64,000 bases of DNA from a virus. Under the pieces are notes generated by a model. It was not told the DNA's origin, ran no database searches, and saw only the letters and a program-made list of their open reading frames with translations. Position numbers and translations under genes: made by a program. Of this stretch, positions 4,182 to 63,719 are shown one piece after another. Within the stretch, counting starts at the first letter, position 1; the number at the start of each line of letters is the position of its first letter. The stretch covers positions 1-64,000 of IMG/VR virus record IMGVR_UViG_3300044695_004134. One strand, written 5' to 3'.

Positions 4182-5939
4182 TTACACAGAGCCAACGATT
4201 TCATTGAAACTTACACCGGTGCGTACAGCAACAAAGTTCAACTGAATGTAGTTGATAGAACGTGCAGGCTTGATGTAAATGTCACCAATGAATTTGTTAG
4301 AATCTATGACTTCAGGTGTATTATTTGTGGTATCGCAAACAACACGGTAGTCATAAATGCCACGGCGACCTTTAACGTCACGTAGGAATGGCTCAACTAA
4401 AGCAATAAATTGGGCACGGGTAAACTCATCATTCAATTCGAATAGAGAATACTTAGATGCTGATGCAATTGCTTTTTCTAACACAATGAACAATCTACGA
4501 ACATTAATACGGCTGAATGCAGATGGTTGTGTTATCAAAGTCTTGTCGCCATACAACATTGTACCTTGACCAGGGAAAGAAACAACTGGGTTAACACCAA
4601 CTGAATAAATGGCATCACGTTGTGCTTGTGTTGGATTCCATGCCAATTTAACAACGTTTTTAATTGCACCACGACTTACGCCTGCTGGTGAGAACCAAGG
4701 ATCACGTGTTTGGTCTGTACGAACACATAGTCCAGCAATATCACCGTTCAATGGAATCCAACGGTACACATTATTATACTTGTCGAATTGGTATTTCCAA
4801 CCAGAATCCGCAACAGCATATGTTGAAGCACGTGCCAATGTTGTAATCCAAGTGGTAACAGAAGTTTCAGGAGTTGCGCCGCCAACAATACCAGATTGTG
4901 GTGGAGACAAGAACGTTATACAATCTTTACGTGCGGCAGCAATAGAATCGATTGTATATTGTTGCACCGTGGCAACGGCTGTAATAGGACTGCTGGTGTT
5001 TGAAGACACACCTGCGTCACCAGTAATTATTAATGAAATATCAACAACGTCTGGGTTTGTGAACTCACCGTAAGCGGTTGTGTAATCTGCTGTTGTCAAA
5101 GGTAAGTTTGTACCGGCTCCAAGTGAAACTGTTGAACCTACGTTATTTGCGGCCATAAAGCAACCACCAAATTGTGTATTGGCAGTTTGACCCCATGTAT
5201 CAGATGTGTTTGCTGAATCAACTGGACCTAATGCATAAATGTACTTTGATTGGTCACGTAGAACTTGTCTGTAATAAGAAGTTGAACCGTCATCACCTGT
5301 TGAATCCGATGCTTTTGATAGGTATGGGAACACTTCAAGAACGGTACCCTTAGCGCCTTGGCTAAACAAACCATCTTCATCAACAACAACTAAGTGGAAC
5401 TGGTCATTTGCACCACCAGAAGTGGCAACATATGATGAAGTATTTGGTGCCGCAGGGAAATATGATTTGTATGTCCAAGATGTGAACGTTGAACCTGTTG
5501 CATTTGCATTTGCGGTGTTAGAATCCCAAACAGAAACCTTTAATGAGTTTCCTAAAGCACCAGGATAACGAGCAACAAATGATTGTGTATTATAATCTGT
5601 AATATATGCTGTATCATATACATCAACATTGTTAATTGTCAAAAGATTGTTCGTATTTGAAGAAGCATTTCTAGAATTGCTGTTGGCCGCACGAACAACT
5701 TGTAGATTGTTTCCATAAGCTAAAAAGTTAGCCGCTGAAAAGAATGAAGTTGCAGTGTTGCCGTCTGGATGACCAAACTTGTTAACTAAATCTGTTTCGT
5801 GTGATACGAGTGTTCTTCGTCCTACTGGTCCCCATTGGAATGGTCCAGCGAATGCACCGGCTGTAGTAGATACCGCAGGAACAACTGTTGTTAAGTCGAC
5901 CTCGGATACACTTACGCCTGGAGAAATTTGAAACGCCAT
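4182..5939 (-). CDS. 18: Tail sheath protein gp18
   Basis: A 585-residue contractile sheath protein (T4 gp18 is 659). The N-terminus (SPGVSVSEVDLT) and the C-terminal region (RRLFIVLEKAI, followed by the DGDIYIKPA-like beta segment around residue 560) are diagnostic of phage sheaths. The C-terminal domain forms the inner layer on the tube, while the central, more variable domain is exposed. The gene has a clear AAGGAG ribosome site and lies between terminase and tube genes as in T4. Confidence 0.95.
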   Translation of the reverse strand: MAFQISPGVSVSEVDLTTVVPAVSTTAGAFAGPFQWGPVGRRTLVSHETDLVNKFGHPDGNTATSFFSAANFLAYGNNLQVVRAANSNSRNASSNTNNLLTINNVDVYDTAYITDYNTQSFVARYPGALGNSLKVSVWDSNTANANATGSTFTSWTYKSYFPAAPNTSSYVATSGGANDQFHLVVVDEDGLFSQGAKGTVLEVFPYLSKASDSTGDDGSTSYYRQVLRDQSKYIYALGPVDSANTSDTWGQTANTQFGGCFMAANNVGSTVSLGAGTNLPLTTADYTTAYGEFTNPDVVDISLIITGDAGVSSNTSSPITAVATVQQYTIDSIAAARKDCITFLSPPQSGIVGGATPETSVTTWITTLARASTYAVADSGWKYQFDKYNNVYRWIPLNGDIAGLCVRTDQTRDPWFSPAGVSRGAIKNVVKLAWNPTQAQRDAIYSVGVNPVVSFPGQGTMLYGDKTLITQPSAFSRINVRRLFIVLEKAIASASKYSLFELNDEFTRAQFIALVEPFLRDVKGRRGIYDYRVVCDTTNNTPEVIDSNKFIGDIYIKPARSINYIQLNFVAVRTGVSFNEIVGSV

Positions 5940-54192: not shown

Positions 54193-54386
54193 CATTTGGT
54201 CATGATAACTTGAGAAATTACTATAAAACTAATTTCTCATTAATGCAACATCACAAATACAGTCTCACGGAACTTGAGAATATGATACCGTGGGAACGTG
54301 ATGTATATGTCGGTATGCTTATACAATATATTGAGGAAGAAAACCAGAAGATTAAACAGAAGATAAACGAGAGAAAGATTAGATGA
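54186..54386 (+). CDS. Frameshift extension of the gp26-like protein (tail assembly chaperone C-terminal part)
   Basis: A 66-codon -1 extension, starting RLTFGHDNLRNYYKTNFSLM, then QHHKYSLTELENMIPWERDV and a Glu/Lys/Gln-rich end, with stop TGA overlapping the ATG of the next gene as ATGA. The amino acid composition is protein-like through the region between the two stops, including the 19 codons before the only internal ATG (54243), so it is unlikely to be translated only from that ATG. From memory, similar short proteins are annotated in marine T4-like phages. The fused product of 306 residues would be made at low frequency, as in the lambda gpG/gpGT system. Confidence 0.7.
   Translation, partial: RLTFGHDNLRNYYKTNFSLMQHHKYSLTELENMIPWERDVYVGMLIQYIEEENQKIKQKINERKIR
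54211..54239 (+). promoter_or_regulatory. Stem-loop downstream of the frameshift site
   Basis: A perfect 10-bp stem (TGAGAAATTA/TAATTTCTCA) with a 9-base loop, 24 bases after the slippery heptamer and just before ATG 54243. It could act as a stimulator or modulate start at 54243. The spacing is longer than usual for a frameshift stimulator. Confidence 0.4.
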
Positions 54387-56320
54387 ACTACTACGATGCC
54401 GCCAGAATAAGAAAAAAAGGCTTCGCAAATTTAATGACCGATAGACTGACCTCTGGTCAGGGTATTGTCTCATCTCTCCGTGGAACTATGTCAGATAGGT
54501 CAATGGCCAAATCCATGGCCATGAAAGAGAGATTCGATCCAATGAATATCGCCAAGTTCCTCACTGGCGGTAGTAATCTAGCACCTGCAATCGTTGGTCG
54601 CCTAATGGGTAGAAGTAAACAAGACATTCGATACTTCACCGGCAAGAAACAATATGAAACTGGAAGTCATCGCCCAAACTACTATGAGAAGTTCAATTCA
54701 GGTATGGGTGGTGGTCGATCTGGAAAGGCCACCGAAATATTAGAAAAAATTGTGTCCTTTATGCAAGATTCCAGGGAAAAGGACTTAGAGGAACAAGATA
54801 CATTCGATTCATATAATGAAATGAATGAATACATGAAAGAAGATAATCACAAAGAAGTGATGAATGTATTCAGGGATGCAATAAAAAAACAACGTAAAGC
54901 CATGAAAGACATGGCTAAAGAAGCCAAGAAACGACAGGCACAAGAGGGCACTGGAGTTCCAACGGCACCGGCACCAAGACCGGCTCCTGCACCTGCTCCA
55001 GCACCTGCTCCAGCACCAGCGCCTGCTCCAGCACCTGCTCCAGCACCAAGACCGGCTCCTGCACCCGCCAAAGATGCGGCCGATAAAGCAGCCAAAGATG
55101 CTACCGAAAAGGCAGCCAAAGATAGGTTAGCTAAAGATGCGGCCGATAAAGCAGCCAAAGATGCTACCGAAAAGGCAGCCAAAGATAGGTTAGCTAAAGA
55201 TGCGGCCGATAAAGCGGCCAAAGAAGCTGCCGATAAAGCGGCCAAAGATAGGTTAGCTAAAGATGCGGCCGATAAAGCGGCCAAAGAAGCTGCCGATAAA
55301 GCGGCCAAAGATAGGTTAGCTAAAGATGCGGCCGATAAAGCGGCCAAAGAAAGGTTAGCCAAAGAAGCTGCTGATGCTAAAAGAATTAAAGATGCGGCTG
55401 ATGCTAAAAAGGCCGCAGACACGGCAAAAAAACAAGAAGCTGCACCAGCAGCACCCACAGCTACTCCAGCGCCACCGGTTGTCACACCAAAGCCCCCTAT
55501 TGTTAAGCCTGCAATAACTGAAGCCGCTAAAACTGCGGCTAAAGCGGCCGCTATTATTGGTGCCGGTGGATTATTGATGCCTGGAGCAGAAGCAGCCACA
55601 GCAATTGATAAAGCATCTAGACAAGTTGGTGTTGATAAAGCAATCATGTATGCAATTGCAAAGCAAGAAAGTGCTTTTAATCCTGATGCGGCCGCCAAAA
55701 CGAGCAGCGCCAAAGGACTTTATCAGTTTATTAAGGGCACTTGGTCCGATATGGTCAAAAGATATGGAGGCAAATATCCAATACTAAAAGAACGTGGACC
55801 TGAAGATGCGGAAGCAAACGCTATAGCAGGTGCATTGTACATTAAAGAAAATTCTGATTTTTTAAAAAAAGCAAAAATACCAATAAATGCTACAACAATA
55901 TATTCAGCCCATTTTTTGGGTCCGGGTGGAGCAAGAACTCTTTTTTCTGCAAGTCCTGATACAGATGCAACAAAATTGATGCCTATAGCGGCCGCAGCGA
56001 ACGAATTTATCTTTTATAAAACAGAAGGTAGAAAAATTCTGAAGGATCAACCAAAAACTGTCTCACAAGTTATTGAAACACTTTTTCAGAAAGTTGGCCA
56101 ATATCAAGAGAAGTATTCACAGGTCTTAAATGCATCCAATATTGGAGCACAATTGGCCGAAACCTCTCAACAAAATGCAGACATGAAAAAGGGTGCTGCC
56201 AACCAATCGGGTGCTACAACATCACCAATTATTATACAAAACAACACTACAAATAAACAAAAAACTATACAACCACCTTCAGCACCATTGGGTGAATTAA
56301 ATCCGAGAATAGGAAACTAA
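54383..56320 (+). CDS. Tape-measure-like tail protein with lytic transglycosylase domain
   Basis: A 645-residue protein. N-terminal domain (about 1-175) shared with the next gene. A flexible linker follows: Pro/Ala-rich about 193-229, then 21-residue Ala/Lys/Asp-rich repeats about 229-320. The C-terminal SLT lytic transglycosylase domain (about 405-530) has the catalytic Glu429 in AIAKQESAFNP and the GLYQFIKGTW motif. It probably combines tail-length or hub function with peptidoglycan cleavage at entry, replacing the lysozyme that is missing from the gp5-like hub protein. The ATG overlaps the frameshift ORF stop. Confidence 0.75.
   Translation: MNYYDAARIRKKGFANLMTDRLTSGQGIVSSLRGTMSDRSMAKSMAMKERFDPMNIAKFLTGGSNLAPAIVGRLMGRSKQDIRYFTGKKQYETGSHRPNYYEKFNSGMGGGRSGKATEILEKIVSFMQDSREKDLEEQDTFDSYNEMNEYMKEDNHKEVMNVFRDAIKKQRKAMKDMAKEAKKRQAQEGTGVPTAPAPRPAPAPAPAPAPAPAPAPAPAPAPRPAPAPAKDAADKAAKDATEKAAKDRLAKDAADKAAKDATEKAAKDRLAKDAADKAAKEAADKAAKDRLAKDAADKAAKEAADKAAKDRLAKDAADKAAKERLAKEAADAKRIKDAADAKKAADTAKKQEAAPAAPTATPAPPVVTPKPPIVKPAITEAAKTAAKAAAIIGAGGLLMPGAEAATAIDKASRQVGVDKAIMYAIAKQESAFNPDAAAKTSSAKGLYQFIKGTWSDMVKRYGGKYPILKERGPEDAEANAIAGALYIKENSDFLKKAKIPINATTIYSAHFLGPGGARTLFSASPDTDATKLMPIAAAANEFIFYKTEGRKILKDQPKTVSQVIETLFQKVGQYQEKYSQVLNASNIGAQLAETSQQNADMKKGAANQSGATTSPIIIQNNTTNKQKTIQPPSAPLGELNPRIGN
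55073..55345 (+). repeat. 63-bp tandem repeats encoding the Ala/Lys/Asp linker
   Basis: Units of 63 bases (21 residues) start at 55073, 55136, 55199 and 55262 with a partial copy at 55325. They are nearly identical, with silent or conservative changes (Thr versus Ala). Such repeats usually vary in copy number. Confidence 0.85.
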
Positions 56321-57820: not shown

Positions 57821-57842
57821 AACCTATCGAATTGGATAGGTT
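57821..57842. terminator. Hairpin between convergent genes
   Basis: Stem of 8 bp (AACCTATC/GATAGGTT), loop of six, overlapping the gp32 stop codon. On the plus strand it may contribute to termination of the tail-gene transcript; the T-run is short, so this is weak. Confidence 0.4.
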
Positions 57843-58717
57843 TATTCTTCGGCTAGCTTAGAGAAATAAGCCAAATCATCATCATCTTCGGCAATACCGG
57901 CATCCGCCATCACTGGCTTACGTGGCATTGCTTTAGCTTGTTCAACTGTAGTCTTAGCAACTACTGGTGAACCATCAAGGCCGAGAACCTTGTCTAGACG
58001 AGCCTTCAACTCATCATAAGACTTAAAGTTTTCTGGCAACAGAAACTCTTTGAGTGAGTATTCTTTCTTCCAGATAGCTTCTAGCTTTGCATCGTCATTC
58101 AACAATGCAGATGGTGACTCAAATTCAGACTTATCATAGTTCTGATAACCCTCAACTTTACGAATCTTGAGTTTGAAGTTTGCACCTTCCCACATATCAA
58201 ATGGGTTGAGTGGCTTCTCATCTTCGAAAGCAGGATTCATTGCTTCGTTAATCTTATCAAAGATTTTCTTACCAAACTTATAAAGAAACACTTTACCTTG
58301 ATTCTGAGGATTCTTAGAATCTTCAACAACGTAGATGTTTGCAATGTAAGACAGACGGCGCTTTTGTTTACGTGCAACTTCCTTGTTTGCTTCGATGCCA
58401 GAGTTCCACAACTGAGAGTTGTATTCAGAAACTGGATCTTTTTGATTCAAGGTTGTAAGAGAGTTTTCAATGTACCAGCCACCAGGACCCTGGAAACCGT
58501 GATTGAATACTTTTACCCACGGGAGTGCATCATCACCATCAACCGATGGCTGAGGCAAGAAACGAATAACTGCATAACCATTGCCGACTTTATCGACTTC
58601 TGGTTTCCAGAAATTGTCATCTTTGGTGGGAGTTTCGGCTGAATTGAGTTTTTCAATAGCCTTGGCGAGTTTGTCTAGGTTACTAGAACTGCTCTTGAGA
58701 TTTGCGAATGAAGACAT
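57842..58717 (-). CDS. 32: Single-stranded DNA-binding protein gp32
   Basis: A 291-residue protein (T4 gp32 is 301). The N-terminal domain, an OB-fold core (about residues 35-215) and an acidic C-terminal tail (DDDDLAYFSK near the end) are in T4 order. KQKRRLSYIANIYVV near residue 117 and GKVFLYKFGKKIFDKI near 141 are diagnostic. No Cys occurs anywhere, so the zinc ligands of T4 gp32 (one His and three Cys) are absent. It coats replicating DNA. A GGAAAA-type ribosome site precedes the ATG. Confidence 0.93.
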   Translation of the reverse strand: MSSFANLKSSSSNLDKLAKAIEKLNSAETPTKDDNFWKPEVDKVGNGYAVIRFLPQPSVDGDDALPWVKVFNHGFQGPGGWYIENSLTTLNQKDPVSEYNSQLWNSGIEANKEVARKQKRRLSYIANIYVVEDSKNPQNQGKVFLYKFGKKIFDKINEAMNPAFEDEKPLNPFDMWEGANFKLKIRKVEGYQNYDKSEFESPSALLNDDAKLEAIWKKEYSLKEFLLPENFKSYDELKARLDKVLGLDGSPVVAKTTVEQAKAMPRKPVMADAGIAEDDDDLAYFSKLAEE

Positions 58718-58798: not shown

Positions 58799-59281
58799 TC
58801 AAACGTACATCTTGAGAATTGCGATGGTAGATTTGGCATCTCTGTGATGAATACCAATACCACCGGCTTTGTTCCAATCATCGATAACAGATTTAGTGTC
58901 ATCAATGATTATGGAATTTGGTGTAGCATACTTGTACTTGTGTCTTTTACCCGGCACAAAGTTTTGTGTATATGCAATATTGTGTGTGTCTAACCACGTA
59001 GCTTTCTGTGGTGCAATCATAGCATGAAATTCTTCACGTGCAGTTGAGGACAGAATCTCTTTTGGAGTACCTAGCGTGTCCAAAAAGTTGAGCAATTCAC
59101 GTGCATCATCCATGAGATCCAATTTGGCGAAACAGTCTTCATGAATGAAGGTTTCAAAAAGACCATAGAATTCTTTTCGGTCACGTGTGTCCTCTGGATA
59201 TAGTTTGAATCGTGCTTTGTATGCTTTGTTGAAGTCGGCAATTACGCCATCCATATCAACATAAATTTTATCGATTGTCAT
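58799..59281 (-). CDS. HAD-type 5'-nucleotidase-like phosphatase
   Basis: A 160-residue protein with the HAD motif DMDGV at residues 9-13 (nucleophile Asp9, acid Asp11), a Ser-Ser-Thr-Ala motif (LSSTAREEF near residue 77) and the acidic IIIDDTKSVIDDW (about 123-135). This matches small 5'(3')-deoxyribonucleotidases of tailed phages. It probably dephosphorylates nucleotides in the infected cell. The start overlaps the gp59 stop as ATGA. Confidence 0.75.
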   Translation of the reverse strand: MTIDKIYVDMDGVIADFNKAYKARFKLYPEDTRDRKEFYGLFETFIHEDCFAKLDLMDDARELLNFLDTLGTPKEILSSTAREEFHAMIAPQKATWLDTHNIAYTQNFVPGKRHKYKYATPNSIIIDDTKSVIDDWNKAGGIGIHHRDAKSTIAILKMYV

Positions 59282-59889
59282 ACTGTTTTCATGATATTTA
59301 AGTTTTTCTTTAAGACTGTGAGCATCTTGGGTTTGTCAAAGTTTAGAAATGGTTTGTACTTCTCACAACTCTTTACGAATTCTGGAAAGATAATGTCATC
59401 TTCAATTTTTTTCACCCACATCGGCAAAAAGTTTAACAACTCATTTAAGATAATTAAAGTCTCTTTAGTGGTGTTTCCTTGCATATAAAGATTATACAAC
59501 AAGGGGTACTGCCCGTCAACCACTTTCAGTAATTCTTCCGGATTGTTTACCGAATCAAATAGTCTGTGGAGGTCCTGTTCAAACACATAGGAAAGGGACT
59601 GTTGAGTTTTTTGCCACACCTTGTACTCAGATTCGGCATCCTCAGACAGGAGATCACCCACCCATATCTTCGGATTCACTAGCATATTGGAGACAAAGAA
59701 ACCAAAGAGTTCATCCCGCTTGTATTTTCTGGATAGTTTGTAAAATTGAAACTTATCCTTACGGAGCATGAATTGTTCTTTGGTTACATTTGTCTTACCA
59801 GAATACTTCACATAATCATATTTTGAAGTGAAATGCAGTTTCAATGCATGAAACATTGCATACGCTTCAAACCCACCGGCTTCATTCAT
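59278..59889 (-). CDS. 59: Helicase loader gp59
   Basis: A 203-residue protein (T4 gp59 is 217). The N-terminal pattern ALKLHFTSKYDYVKYSGKTN (about residues 15-34) and KFQFYKLSRKYKRDELFGFF (about 46-65) match the gp59 family. It loads the gp41 helicase onto gp32-covered DNA. It is tightly coupled to the gp33 gene upstream and the nucleotidase downstream. Confidence 0.9.
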   Translation of the reverse strand: MNEAGGFEAYAMFHALKLHFTSKYDYVKYSGKTNVTKEQFMLRKDKFQFYKLSRKYKRDELFGFFVSNMLVNPKIWVGDLLSEDAESEYKVWQKTQQSLSYVFEQDLHRLFDSVNNPEELLKVVDGQYPLLYNLYMQGNTTKETLIILNELLNFLPMWVKKIEDDIIFPEFVKSCEKYKPFLNFDKPKMLTVLKKNLNIMKTV

Positions 59890-60107
59890 ATGAACAACTT
59901 ATTCACTTTCTTAATCATATTTGCGGCTTGTGCTTCATCAGAAATTTTAGATTTCAGCGGTGTAGTAAGGAGTGTTGCCGCAATCTCTACTTCAAATCCG
60001 GTCTCCTGGCAATGAAGAAGTACCGCATCCATATAGCCAATTCTCTTAACCTTTACGATTTCTTCGATGATGGCCGAGAAATTACGTTGCTCCTCTTTCG
60101 TTGGCAT
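59886..60107 (-). CDS. 33: Late transcription co-activator gp33
   Basis: A 73-residue protein (T4 gp33 is 112). The sequence PTKEEQRNFSAIIEEIV at the start and AATLLTTPLKSKISDEA (about residues 42-58) are family signatures in T4-like marine phages. It links the sliding clamp to RNA polymerase at TATAAATA late promoters like those in this window. It overlaps gp59 as ATGA. Confidence 0.88.
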   Translation of the reverse strand: MPTKEEQRNFSAIIEEIVKVKRIGYMDAVLLHCQETGFEVEIAATLLTTPLKSKISDEAQAANMIKKVNKLFI

Positions 60108-60897: not shown

Positions 60898-60954
60898 GGT
60901 GTGGATCACGAGATTGCAGTCTCTATCCACTCTAACATGAAAGACCATGCCAGC

Positions 60955-61419
60955 ATGAAAATTAACACATCTTTTTATGTTTACGCATATCTCCGAGACA
61001 ACGGAACTCCATATTACATAGGTAAAGGTTCTGGAAAAAGGATATACAGTAAACACAACATAAAATTACCAAAAGACGTATCTAAAATAATATTCGTAGA
61101 GAAGAATTTGACAGAAATTGGAGCTTTTGCCATCGAACGTAGTTTAATACGTTGGTATGGAAGAAAGGATAACAATACTGGCATATTAAGAAATCTAACG
61201 AACGGCGGAGAAGGTGGTTCAGGTGCAATACGAACTTCGGAACACCGAAAACTTATTAGTAATGCTATGCTTGGAAATTCCAGAGCAAAGGGTCATAAAA
61301 GACCAGGAACGAAACCTGAACTAAACAAACATAAAATTTATATGAGTTGTTTACATTGCAATAAACAATTTAACATTGGTAATTTTACCAAACATATAAA
61401 TTCACTAAAAGCCGGATGA
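60955..61419 (+). CDS. GIY-YIG homing endonuclease with a Zn-finger-like end
   Basis: A 154-residue endonuclease from the ATG at 60955 (a GTG at 60901 is possible but has no ribosome site and would add 18 residues). The GIY-YIG motif is VYAYLRDNGTPYYIGKG (about residues 7-23), followed by ERSLIRWYGRKD (about 61-72). The C-terminus has a CLHCNKQF segment (about 133-140) with a later His, resembling a zinc-finger end. It is closely related to the 43-kb gene. It is the only plus-strand gene in this region and its end abuts the tmRNA gene. Confidence 0.85.
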   Translation: MKINTSFYVYAYLRDNGTPYYIGKGSGKRIYSKHNIKLPKDVSKIIFVEKNLTEIGAFAIERSLIRWYGRKDNNTGILRNLTNGGEGGSGAIRTSEHRKLISNAMLGNSRAKGHKRPGTKPELNKHKIYMSCLHCNKQFNIGNFTKHINSLKAG

Positions 61420-61441
61420 TTGGATAATAAGGACATCCGGC
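61407..61441 (-). terminator. Terminator of the tmRNA gene
   Basis: A hairpin with an 8-bp GC-rich stem (GCCGGATG/CATCCGGC) and a 15-base loop, followed by TTTT on the minus strand. It overlaps the end of the GIY-YIG ORF (stop at 61417-61419). Confidence 0.7.
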
Positions 61442-61458
61442 AAAACCTCAGCTTAGCC

Positions 61459-61491
61459 TCAAGCGGCTAGGCGATATTCACTGTCGTTTGC
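61459..61491 (-). other. tmRNA tag reading frame (tag ANDSEYRLAA)
   Basis: Resume codon GCA (61491-61489), then AAC GAC AGT GAA TAT CGC CTA GCC GCT and stop TGA (61461-61459). The encoded tag ends LAA, the classic ClpXP degron, and seven of its ten residues equal the E. coli tag ANDENYALAA. The bases upstream of the resume codon are GTAACT. Confidence 0.85.
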
Positions 61492-61649
61492 AGTTACTTT
61501 GATTTAGTTTTTACACCTACTCTGGTGAGTTGTCCACTTCTGTACTTGTTGCCCTGTCGAATAGCTGAGTACACCCCCATCAAAAGCACTTCCCGATTTA
61601 CATTCCCCCGAATACATCATTTCTGGTTCGGCTAATACGCAAATGCTTT

Positions 61650-61720
61650 TGGTGGAGGTGGGGGGATTTGCACCCCCGTCCAGAACACTTTTCTAGTTGC
61701 TTCATACAACCATAGCCCCT
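61650..61720 (-). other. tmRNA acceptor piece (3' tRNA-like part)
   Basis: About 70 bases starting GGGGCTATGG and ending in CCA. The final 34 bases make a T-stem (GGGGG/CCCCC) with loop TGCAAAT, the 3' strand of the acceptor stem, the discriminator A and CCA. The upstream part has TTGTATGAAGCAAC, which could pair with GTACA of the coding piece (5 bp, one G-U) as in tmRNA helix 2; this last pairing is tentative. Confidence 0.75.
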
Positions 61721-61749
61721 ATTATAGAGGTTTTTTATTTAGGTGTCAA
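61721..61749 (-). promoter_or_regulatory. Consensus sigma70 promoter of the tmRNA gene
   Basis: On the minus strand, TTGACA (61749-61744), a 17-base spacer and TATAAT (61726-61721): a perfect bacterial housekeeping promoter. Transcription should start about six bases later, at the beginning of the acceptor piece. It differs from the phage late promoters elsewhere in the window. Confidence 0.88.
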
Positions 61750-61766
61750 GCGTTTTTGTGGTAAAT

Positions 61767-62435
61767 TTACTGTGTAAGTGCTGTCATATACTGAAATTCT
61801 GTCAGTTGTATCAGATCACCTAGGCTACCTTCAGGCATCAAATTGAATGATAAACTTCGCCTTATTTTTCCAGGCTCACCTTTAGGCACAAAGTGTGGCA
61901 AGTGGGATGGAAATAAAACTAATCTACCTTTTTGAGCAGGAATTATAGCATGTTGTGCTGAAAATTCTGTGTTAATATCGACCCTTCGCTTTGGAATTAG
62001 TTGACATACAGCGTTCACACCTGGATGCTTTTCAAAAACTATAGATTGATCTTCATCATACACATCATCAAAATACAAAACACCAGAAATAAAACTGTTC
62101 GGATGTGTATGTGTTCTATGTTCTCTATCCGAAGGTTTTTGATTGATCCATGACAAAACATCAACCATTCCTTTGATATCGTAGCCCATGACTTGGTTGA
62201 CAAGCGTATTACTATTGACGAGAATCGTATTTCGAACGTTTTTCAACTCAGGCATTCTGAGCACCTGTTTATTGTCAGACAAATTCGACCACATCTCACT
62301 GTTGGATTCACCATTCAGAAATTTTTCAGTGAAGGCTGGTGTTACATGTGTGGAAATAAGTGCGGTCTGTTCTGTTGTGGTTAGACTTATATCTTGAACA
62401 AAAATTGCTGTTGGAAAAATAGGAATGACTTGCAT
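61767..62435 (-). CDS. 2-oxoglutarate/Fe(II)-dependent oxygenase (PF13759-like) A
   Basis: A 222-residue enzyme. The RTHTHPNSFISGVLYFDD segment (about residues 107-124) contains an H-x-H iron-binding pattern, and LVLFPSHLPHFV (about 172-183) holds the distal His. RRSLSFN (about 192-198) carries the Arg for 2-oxoglutarate. These match the 2OG-FeII_Oxy_5 family, often found in marine phages. The substrate is unknown; it may hydroxylate a protein, nucleotide or small molecule. It is a paralogue of the gene upstream (TAATG overlap), and its end precedes the tmRNA promoter. Confidence 0.75.
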   Translation of the reverse strand: MQVIPIFPTAIFVQDISLTTTEQTALISTHVTPAFTEKFLNGESNSEMWSNLSDNKQVLRMPELKNVRNTILVNSNTLVNQVMGYDIKGMVDVLSWINQKPSDREHRTHTHPNSFISGVLYFDDVYDEDQSIVFEKHPGVNAVCQLIPKRRVDINTEFSAQHAIIPAQKGRLVLFPSHLPHFVPKGEPGKIRRSLSFNLMPEGSLGDLIQLTEFQYMTALTQ

Positions 62436-63112
62436 TATATGGCGTCTCCATAATTAAAAAATGTTAATTCATTTTGAGAACCGACAGAGTATCTAGGAAC
62501 TACATTGAATGCTAACGAATATCTATTTGAGTTAGTTCTGTTCGTTTCTACCATGTGTTTCAGATAAGATGGAAATAATACCAACTCACCTTGTCTTATA
62601 TCCAATAAAATAGATTCCACAGCAAAAGTTGACTCCGATTTACTTTCTCTCGGTAAAGAAATCGTATTTTGTTTTGCCGCCACTACACCAGGATCACCAA
62701 AAATTATTGGACATTTTTCAACGTTCGCATCAAAGTAGAAAACACCGGAAATGAAGGAATTTGGATGTATGTGTGGAACGTGTTCTTCGCCTGGTGATTT
62801 GATTGATATCCAAGATAACACATCAATATATTCGGGTGCATTATAACCTAAGACCGTATTACCAACAATTTTACAATTGTCGAGTATAAACTTACGTAAA
62901 TCCGCACATTCGGGTTTACGTAACACTTTAACATCATCTGAATGTGAGCCATATAGTTTTTTTACAGGAGCAATTTGCCGAAGTGTTTTGGGGTCAGTAA
63001 AGTTTGATTTAATTGTTTGTGTTCTCAAGAAATTTTGCAGCTTAACATCATCTTTGTATTTGAAAACACAAACGGGTATAGGAAACAATGCATGTACAGT
63101 AAATTCACTCAT
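62435..63112 (-). CDS. 2-oxoglutarate/Fe(II)-dependent oxygenase (PF13759-like) B
   Basis: A 225-residue enzyme started at the ATG at 63112, right after the stop of the upstream gene; a longer frame would overlap that gene's coding region. Motifs equivalent to the paralogue are HVPHIHPNSFISGVFYFD (H-x-H), LVLFPSYLKHMV, and RYSLAFN for the Arg. The differing central regions suggest different substrates. It belongs with its two neighbours to a set of three oxygenases. Confidence 0.75.
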   Translation of the reverse strand: MSEFTVHALFPIPVCVFKYKDDVKLQNFLRTQTIKSNFTDPKTLRQIAPVKKLYGSHSDDVKVLRKPECADLRKFILDNCKIVGNTVLGYNAPEYIDVLSWISIKSPGEEHVPHIHPNSFISGVFYFDANVEKCPIIFGDPGVVAAKQNTISLPRESKSESTFAVESILLDIRQGELVLFPSYLKHMVETNRTNSNRYSLAFNVVPRYSVGSQNELTFFNYGDAI

Positions 63113-63113
63113 A

Positions 63114-63692
63114 TCAAAATGCCCATGAAACAAAAGACCAACGTTCACCCTCAGTTACGGTTGTGACTTCATGTGTATACATGAAGGTTGCTGGAAAAAT
63201 TAAAATATCACCAGCCCGAACTTGTATTTTCATATTATCAAACATAATAAATTCTCCTCCGGAATAGTTGTCATTCAAAACACCCACTATGCTAAGAGTC
63301 GGTCTACCAACACCTTTTTCAAAAAGTGATGAAATAGCATCATTGTGCTTAGCCATGTTTGAACCTGGTGTGTATCGATTTATTCTTGGATGGCTCATGT
63401 GTGCATACACGCCTCCCGTTACACCAATTTTATTGTGGTATGAAATTATAGCATTGTTTATAGCATCTATCAATATTTGAGCAGTTTCATCATCAACACC
63501 CTTTACCGACAATTCAGCTTCATCTCTACTATGTTGTTTTAATTTTCCAGTTTCCACATCTGTTGTGGTCCAACTGTGTTGTGACCAGGTATCATCCAGT
63601 TTCTGATTTTCGCTGATTATTTTCTGACAAATTTCGTCATCTAAAAATCCTCGGGCCACATAAATATAGTCAGTTAAATATGGTAAGTTCAT
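63114..63692 (-). CDS. 2-oxoglutarate/Fe(II)-dependent oxygenase (prolyl-4-hydroxylase-like) C
   Basis: A 192-residue enzyme started at the ATG at 63692 (AGGAG seven bases upstream), not the TTG one codon before. Residues: RYTPGSNMAKHNDA has the H-x-D pair (His116, Asp118), DILIFPATFMYTHEV has the distal His (174), and ERWSFVSW gives the Arg (184). This is the P4H/PHD-type 2OG-Fe(II) fold, seen in many marine phages. It may modify a protein or another substrate. The family differs from the two neighbouring oxygenases, so it was acquired separately. Confidence 0.8.
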   Translation of the reverse strand: MNLPYLTDYIYVARGFLDDEICQKIISENQKLDDTWSQHSWTTTDVETGKLKQHSRDEAELSVKGVDDETAQILIDAINNAIISYHNKIGVTGGVYAHMSHPRINRYTPGSNMAKHNDAISSLFEKGVGRPTLSIVGVLNDNYSGGEFIMFDNMKIQVRAGDILIFPATFMYTHEVTTVTEGERWSFVSWAF

Positions 63693-63719
63693 CAATTATC
63701 TCCTCTTCAAAATAAGAAT

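Follow-up and report, generated by a model that had tools for sequence, protein, structure and literature searches.

A beta-type permuted tmRNA gene beside gp33 in a T4-like phage, and the intervening segment of its relatives as a candidate slot for protein genes

tmRNA genes are uncommon in phages, as the earlier note on this DNA stated and as their presence in 402 of 18,146 phage genomes bears out (PMC9004378). The two-piece form accounts for 53 of the 133 unique phage tmRNA structures, and it has already been published at the gp33 site considered here, in phage Melnitz (PMC9004378). The tmRNA database holds 79 bacteriophage sequences, and among the intervening sequences one is described as containing a tRNA-Ala, and the longest as containing a repeat (PMC11915505).

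Melnitz and Mosig (PMC9004378) are T4-like phages whose permuted tmRNA, like that of the window (the whole 64-kb stretch of viral DNA analyzed here), lies immediately 5′ of gp33 and gp59 or near them. The tmRNA of Melnitz is of the alpha type and has a glutamine riboswitch immediately downstream, whereas the window copy is of the beta type and no riboswitch match was found near it. The window locus also differs from both phages in having a homing endonuclease-like ORF at the 3′ end, another tag, and a front and back that form a mosaic. Like the betaproteobacterial permuted tmRNA (RF01850), the window copy passes the cut-off of the model and has the same 3′ hairpin and loop signature, but its T-loop carries G55, its D-loop carries AG with an insertion, and only its T arm can be aligned to hosts. 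Permuted phage tmRNAs are also found in the T4-like Stenotrophomonas phages (Menderavirus), though in a tRNA cluster beside the nrd genes and not at gp33, with the tag VAANDDSYTVRIAA. Group I introns bearing homing endonucleases in tmRNA genes, and the tRNA-Ala and the repeat in a few permuted intervening segments (IVSs), are likewise nested in a removed precursor segment (PMC11915505). In contrast to these elements, the cargo in relatives of the window locus consists of diverse protein genes, in the RNase P- and 3′-processed IVS of the permuted form.

Two observations on other phages should be noted. Permuted tmRNAs occur in phages of Xanthomonadaceae hosts (L124, a Stenotrophomonas phage; L126 and L573, Xanthomonas phages), and the form of the hosts' own tmRNA may differ. 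In phage DSS3_MAL1 (L574), a GOLLD RNA (RF02032, 160.5 bits, 769–1232) and a tRNA-Arg overlap, some 100 nt 5′ of the permuted tmRNA.

The window copy is a new member of the published type, and the novelty lies in the wider family with a gene slot in the IVS. We consider it highly probable that the window holds a functional-looking phage permuted tmRNA gene of the beta type, belonging to a module-swapping lineage at the gp33 site with a slot in the IVS, and that the slot of the window copy is empty.

Anatomy and genomic setting of the tmRNA gene

ARAGORN called a sole tmRNA in the window, a permuted gene on the minus strand (61742–61368) with the tag ANDSEYRLAA. Two Rfam matches exceed the gathering score in the whole 64 kb, and both are this locus: RF04321 (tmRNA_permuted) at 61711–61459 (106.6 bits, E 8.6e-20, cut-off 47) and RF01850 (beta_tmRNA) at 61763–61385 (104.1 bits, E 1.3e-30, cut-off 84). 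The earlier note had claimed a complete permuted tmRNA gene on the minus strand (61749–61407) with the acceptor piece before the coding piece, and had proposed ARAGORN and permuted covariance models as the check. The call and both scores agree with that claim. Its positions for the acceptor strands, the CCA, the T arm, the closing helix and the tag all hold on re-reading of the sequence, and ARAGORN gives the same tag followed by TGA (61491–61459). Apart from the RF04321 score, the gene combines the permuted order with a 7-bp acceptor stem, a G3·U70 pair and a CCA end, and the tag frame starts with Ala after the resume region and ends in -AA. The G3·U70 pair is an alanine identity element. The features of the locus, all in window coordinates, are as follows.

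61721–61749, minus strand: sigma-70-type promoter match TTGACA-17-TATAAT (12 of 12 consensus positions)
61650–61711, minus strand: acceptor piece of the permuted tmRNA (ARAGORN and Rfam; 61711 is the start of the model match, not a mapped mature 5′ end)
61661–61677, minus strand: T arm GGGGG-TGCAAAT-CCCCC with a G55 T-loop (sequence and covariation)
61650–61660, minus strand: 3′ acceptor strand CACCTCC (61660–61654) plus ACCA, bearing U70 of the G3·U70 pair (U-G pair in 22 of 22)
61579–61649, minus strand: IVS of 71 nt, ending in TGAT, with a closing helix of 9–10 bp; ORF-free
61572–61578, minus strand: 5′ acceptor strand GGGGGTG, start of the coding piece (expected RNase P site 61579/61578)
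61556–61571, minus strand: D-loop region TACTCAGCTAT-TCGAC with an insertion; AG is kept opposite the G55 T-loop (Rfam alignment and T-/D-loop comparison)
61459–61491, minus strand: tag frame ANDSEYRLAA plus TGA (ARAGORN; module identical to that of L135 over 82 nt)
61411–61441, minus strand: 3′ hairpin GCCGGATG/CATCCGGC, a conserved beta-tmRNA element (beta_tmRNA model, fold and covariation)
60901–61419, plus strand: GIY-YIG-type homing endonuclease-like ORF, convergent, with its 3′ end overlapping the tmRNA 3′ hairpin
59886–60107, minus strand: gp33 late-transcription coactivator, downstream neighbor (PF16805, E 1.4e-15)
59278–59889, minus strand: gp59 helicase loader, neighbor (PF08993, E 5.6e-15)
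57842–58717, minus strand: gp32 ssDNA-binding protein, neighbor (PF08804, E 2.8e-47)

The IVS folds with a 10-bp closing helix (61650–61641 with 61591–61582), and the first pair of this helix takes the A of the CCA. The promoter consensus is also present 5′ of the tmRNA in the related loci L127, L133 and L140. The hairpin at 61441–61411 had been read as a terminator in the earlier note, a reading that is not supported. In the beta_tmRNA model, a helix and its loop correspond to this hairpin. The hairpin also covaries among 22 relatives as helix 4 of the set described below, and it is absent from the list given by a terminator scan. The plain terminator reading was dropped on these three grounds. 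Judging from the sequence comparison, the hairpin is a tmRNA element, and it may have an additional role in termination.

The Pfam matches to gp32, gp59 and gp33 adjoin the tmRNA, and the virus can be called T4-like, as the earlier note had done, because these three genes stand downstream of it. The order on the same strand 3′ of the tmRNA is a SleB-type hydrolase gene, gp33, gp59, an NT5C-like gene and gp32. A tmRNA before gp33 and gp59 is also found in Pelagibacter phage Mosig, in Methylophilales phage Melnitz and in dozens of contigs. The tmRNA site at gp33 is stable although the tmRNA type differs between phages, since the same order is kept with a beta-type tmRNA in the window and an alpha-type one in Melnitz. 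On the other side of the tmRNA, three consecutive 2OG-Fe(II) oxygenase genes lie upstream of it at 61770–63695 (PF13759 twice and PF13640). Farther away in the window, in an ORF at 54383–56320, extended Pro-Ala and Ala-Lys/Asp repeats precede a region that resembles a lytic transglycosylase domain by eye.

No SmpB gene was found in the parent record, a 166,193-base IMG/VR virus, and the phage tmRNA must therefore rely on host SmpB. A phage without its own SmpB might also use such an RNA as a decoy, to titrate SmpB of the host or to block its trans-translation, in the manner of the DS6A molecule, which consists of the tRNA-like domain only; molecules of the DS6A type inhibit tmRNA (PMC4131195, PMC11915505). 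We regard a decoy as very unlikely here, since the tag frame, the resume region and the 3′ domain, all needless for a decoy, remain intact and diversify together as one module.

For a functional tmRNA, by analogy with known systems, the following course would be expected. The host-type (sigma-70) promoter would give a single precursor transcript. Host RNase P would cut this transcript just before 61578, 3′ processing would stop at the CCA at 61650, and the 71-nt IVS would be released while the two pieces remain paired. Host AlaRS would then charge the G3·U70 acceptor, and host SmpB would bring the charged tmRNA to ribosomes that have stalled on mRNAs broken in the infected cell, where addition of ANDSEYRLAA would lead to ClpXP-type proteolysis. 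We infer such transcription, processing, charging and role for the window locus. Rescue of ribosomes on mRNAs broken in infection is a plausible benefit to the phage.

Covariation among phage relatives and the origin of the gene

The tmRNAs of 22 related phage contigs were aligned with MAFFT, without fitting to the structure, and 30 named pairs in four helices were counted. Standard pairs occupy 95.5% of the pair cells, and both sides have changed in 23 of the 30 pairs. The covariation score is 0.514, compared with 0.161 for shuffled alignments and at most 0.107 for slid ones. Covariation is seen in the acceptor, T, IVS-closing and 3′ helices. In the acceptor stem (helix 2), the sequence varies while all cells (100%) are paired. 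The third acceptor pair, G3·U70, is G·U in 22 of 22 tmRNAs, a figure to be read with the fact that acceptor pairing and U70 were entry conditions of the permuted-gene scan. The IVS-closing helix covaries in 8 of its 10 pairs. In 119 distinct segments, the IVS ends pair by a mean of 9.8 bp, compared with 5.8 bp when the ends are swapped between segments.

The window gene could alternatively be a captured host tmRNA copy that is decaying without function, for instance after imprecise excision of a prophage. Phages can acquire ssrA fragments (PMC9004378), and the D-loop insertion in the window tmRNA is unusual. Contrarily, compensatory changes are found in all helices of the 22 phage sequences together with the invariant G3·U70, and the tag is intact. 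The comparison with hosts also speaks against such a copy. When the tmRNA gene was compared by BLAST with 399 Burkholderiales genomes, only a stretch of 30–46 nt in the T arm aligned, and a T-arm pattern search over 84,980 species gave no Betaproteobacterium among its matches. These two observations point to a long-standing phage tmRNA lineage and not to a recent capture, and we consider the decaying copy highly improbable. The two-piece tmRNAs of phages are thus seen to form a persistent gene lineage under selection, linked to the late-transcription gene gp33, and not accidental captures. The cut-off of RF01850 (84) is reached in only 1 of 399 Pseudomonadota genomes, and the window copy passes it with 104.1 bits. 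This result narrows the host group to beta-like and no further.

The contact between the T-loop and the D-loop should also be noted. Among permuted and one-piece tmRNAs, with duplicates kept, a T-loop with U55 goes with GG in the D-loop in 90 of 92 cases, and a T-loop with G55 goes with AG in 78 of 86. This suggests that the G18·U55 contact is replaced by an A18·G55 contact in the G55 tmRNAs. In the window (61661–61677 against 61556–61571) and in L140, the AG is kept but shifted by a small insertion.

An apparent lack of tmRNA in the closest relatives, L127–L129, was rejected: ARAGORN missed the tmRNA in these three and in L131, and Rfam detected all of them.

Mosaic structure, tags and the ORF at the 3′ end

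The front of the gene, which runs from the promoter up to the resume codon, agrees with that of L417 at 247 of 251 positions, the IVSs being identical, while the remaining parts of the two are 59% alike. The back matches L135, which has another front: starting at the resume codon, 82 of 82 nt are the same. Because the front matches L417 and the back matches L135, the tag and the 3′ hairpin are best read as a module that is exchanged at the resume codon. The lineage would thus be fixed upstream of gp33 and would swap three modules: the promoter with the tRNA-like front, the IVS, and the tag with the 3′ hairpin.

The tags differ widely among close relatives (ANDSEYRLAA, ANDEKFALAA, ANDSRFLMVA and ANDESYRIAA). 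This variation, together with recombination of the tag module at the resume codon, would fit a phage tag that re-targets proteins to a different protease fate than the host tag, with tag swapping being adaptive. This reading is tentative and somewhat unlikely, since nearly all the tags end in -AA as bacterial ones do.

The ORF at 60901–61419 matches the PHROG homing endonuclease family phrog_314 (E 1.4e-5). Its GIY-YIG motif was recognized by eye only, and Pfam gave no GIY-YIG match. All five of its closest homologues with enough flank (L416, L417, L418, L420 and L421) converge on the tmRNA coding piece, at a distance of 153–155 nt between the ORF and the start of that piece. More distant homologues are not placed beside a tmRNA. 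In L127, another endonuclease-like ORF occupies the same gap (4339–4728, minus strand; phrog_314, E 3.7e-12), and in L131 the gap is 58 bp without an endonuclease ORF.

The overlap of the GIY-YIG-like ORF with the 3′ hairpin, the same placement in its nearest relatives and an HNH-type endonuclease within the IVS of L372 could mean that the tmRNA is chiefly a landing site, used by a homing endonuclease and by cargo genes and kept by the selfish element. However, many relatives, such as L131 and L135, keep the tmRNA without a homing endonuclease gene, and structural constraint is still seen in them. A landing site kept in this way is therefore unlikely. In the reading of the tmRNA as a selected phage gene, tag and tRNA-like modules are reshuffled among phages, and a homing endonuclease-like ORF sits at their junction. 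The tmRNA-associated GIY-YIG-like endonuclease at the 3′ end is probably the driver of this exchange, presumably through homing.

The intervening segment of relatives

The 71-nt IVS of the window contains no ORF. In L131 and L127, whose gp32 is 96–100% identical to that of the window, the IVS contains an ORF with a ribosome-binding site. A search for permuted tmRNAs in which AAGGA follows the CCA, together with a scan for complete genes, yielded 72 loci with an IVS ORF, encoding 58 different proteins, in metagenomic viral contigs; the AAGGA pattern favors ORF-bearing IVSs, so that the frequency of slots is biased. A tmRNA above the Rfam cut-off surrounds the IVS ORF in every locus tested. The nested protein genes include the following.

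L127, 4021–4179: protein gene in the IVS
L131, about 2550–2640: protein gene in the IVS
L191, 329–550: protein gene in the IVS
L168, 950–1102: protein gene in the IVS
L492, 2001–2255: thioredoxin gene in the IVS
L372, 5948–6430: HNH-type endonuclease gene in the IVS

Among 41 distinct IVSs of at least 120 nt, 36 have an ORF that covers at least 55% of the segment, compared with a mean of 4.6 and a maximum of 12 in dinucleotide shuffles. The IVS protein families with several members are under coding selection (dN/dS about 0.1–0.3). The cargo includes a thioredoxin (PF00085, E 4.1e-21), a CxxCxxCC protein (E 1.3e-6), a PGDYG protein (E 3.4e-6) and a homing endonuclease (phrog_655, E 6.7e-15), as well as a 52-aa coiled-coil-like family and families of membrane peptides of 24, 38 and 44 aa. 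Chance as the source of the IVS ORFs was ruled out by the shuffles, dN/dS and the Pfam matches. In an unbiased set of 68 distinct segments, whose filter missed L127 and L131, all three IVSs of at least 170 nt have an ORF; few IVSs in this set are long, and most of the short ones are without an ORF.

The ends of the nested ORFs follow the structure of the tmRNA precursor. In 53 of the 72 loci, a single nucleotide separates the stop from the acceptor strand, because nearly all IVSs, coding or not, end in TGAT (104 of 119 distinct segments). Free-standing phage thioredoxins end in ...VKVK-stop, whereas the slot copies of L492–L494 end in ...VKVSL-stop, with the last codons coming from the closing helix. 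A related thioredoxin on another tmRNA backbone (L501) has its own stop.

These observations, all from relatives on metagenomic contigs, make it likely that the tmRNA IVS of a widespread T4-like phage group has evolved into a protein-gene slot, with the window as an empty-slot member. The precursor would double as an mRNA, with the ribosome-binding site in the closing helix and, as the usual stop, the conserved UGA located one nucleotide 5′ of the RNase P site. Because of these two positions, translation of the nested gene should interfere with tmRNA maturation and vice versa, and a mutual exclusion of the two processes can be tested. If the slot is real, one RNA gene appears to be both a ribosome-rescue RNA and a messenger.

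No earlier report of protein genes in permuted-tmRNA intervening segments was found in the open-access literature, and annotation pipelines miss the IVS-nested genes and some of these tmRNAs. Six annotated phage records (Mosig, Menderavirus, Xanthomonas phages Rb1 and XacN1, Melnitz, and DSS3_MAL1) contain no convincing IVS ORF, and isolated phage genomes gave no match to either of two conserved IVS proteins, of 52 and 38 aa. The pattern of CCA followed by AAGGA has 0 matches in 399 Burkholderiales genomes, and the host IVSs measured, a non-exhaustive set, are 10–57 nt long.

A pair of near-identical IVSs, in L188 and L189, should be noted. Their closing helices differ by a compensatory double change (GATATG/CATATC in one and GACATG/CATGTC in the other), and a hydrophobic ORF of 22 codons stays open in both.
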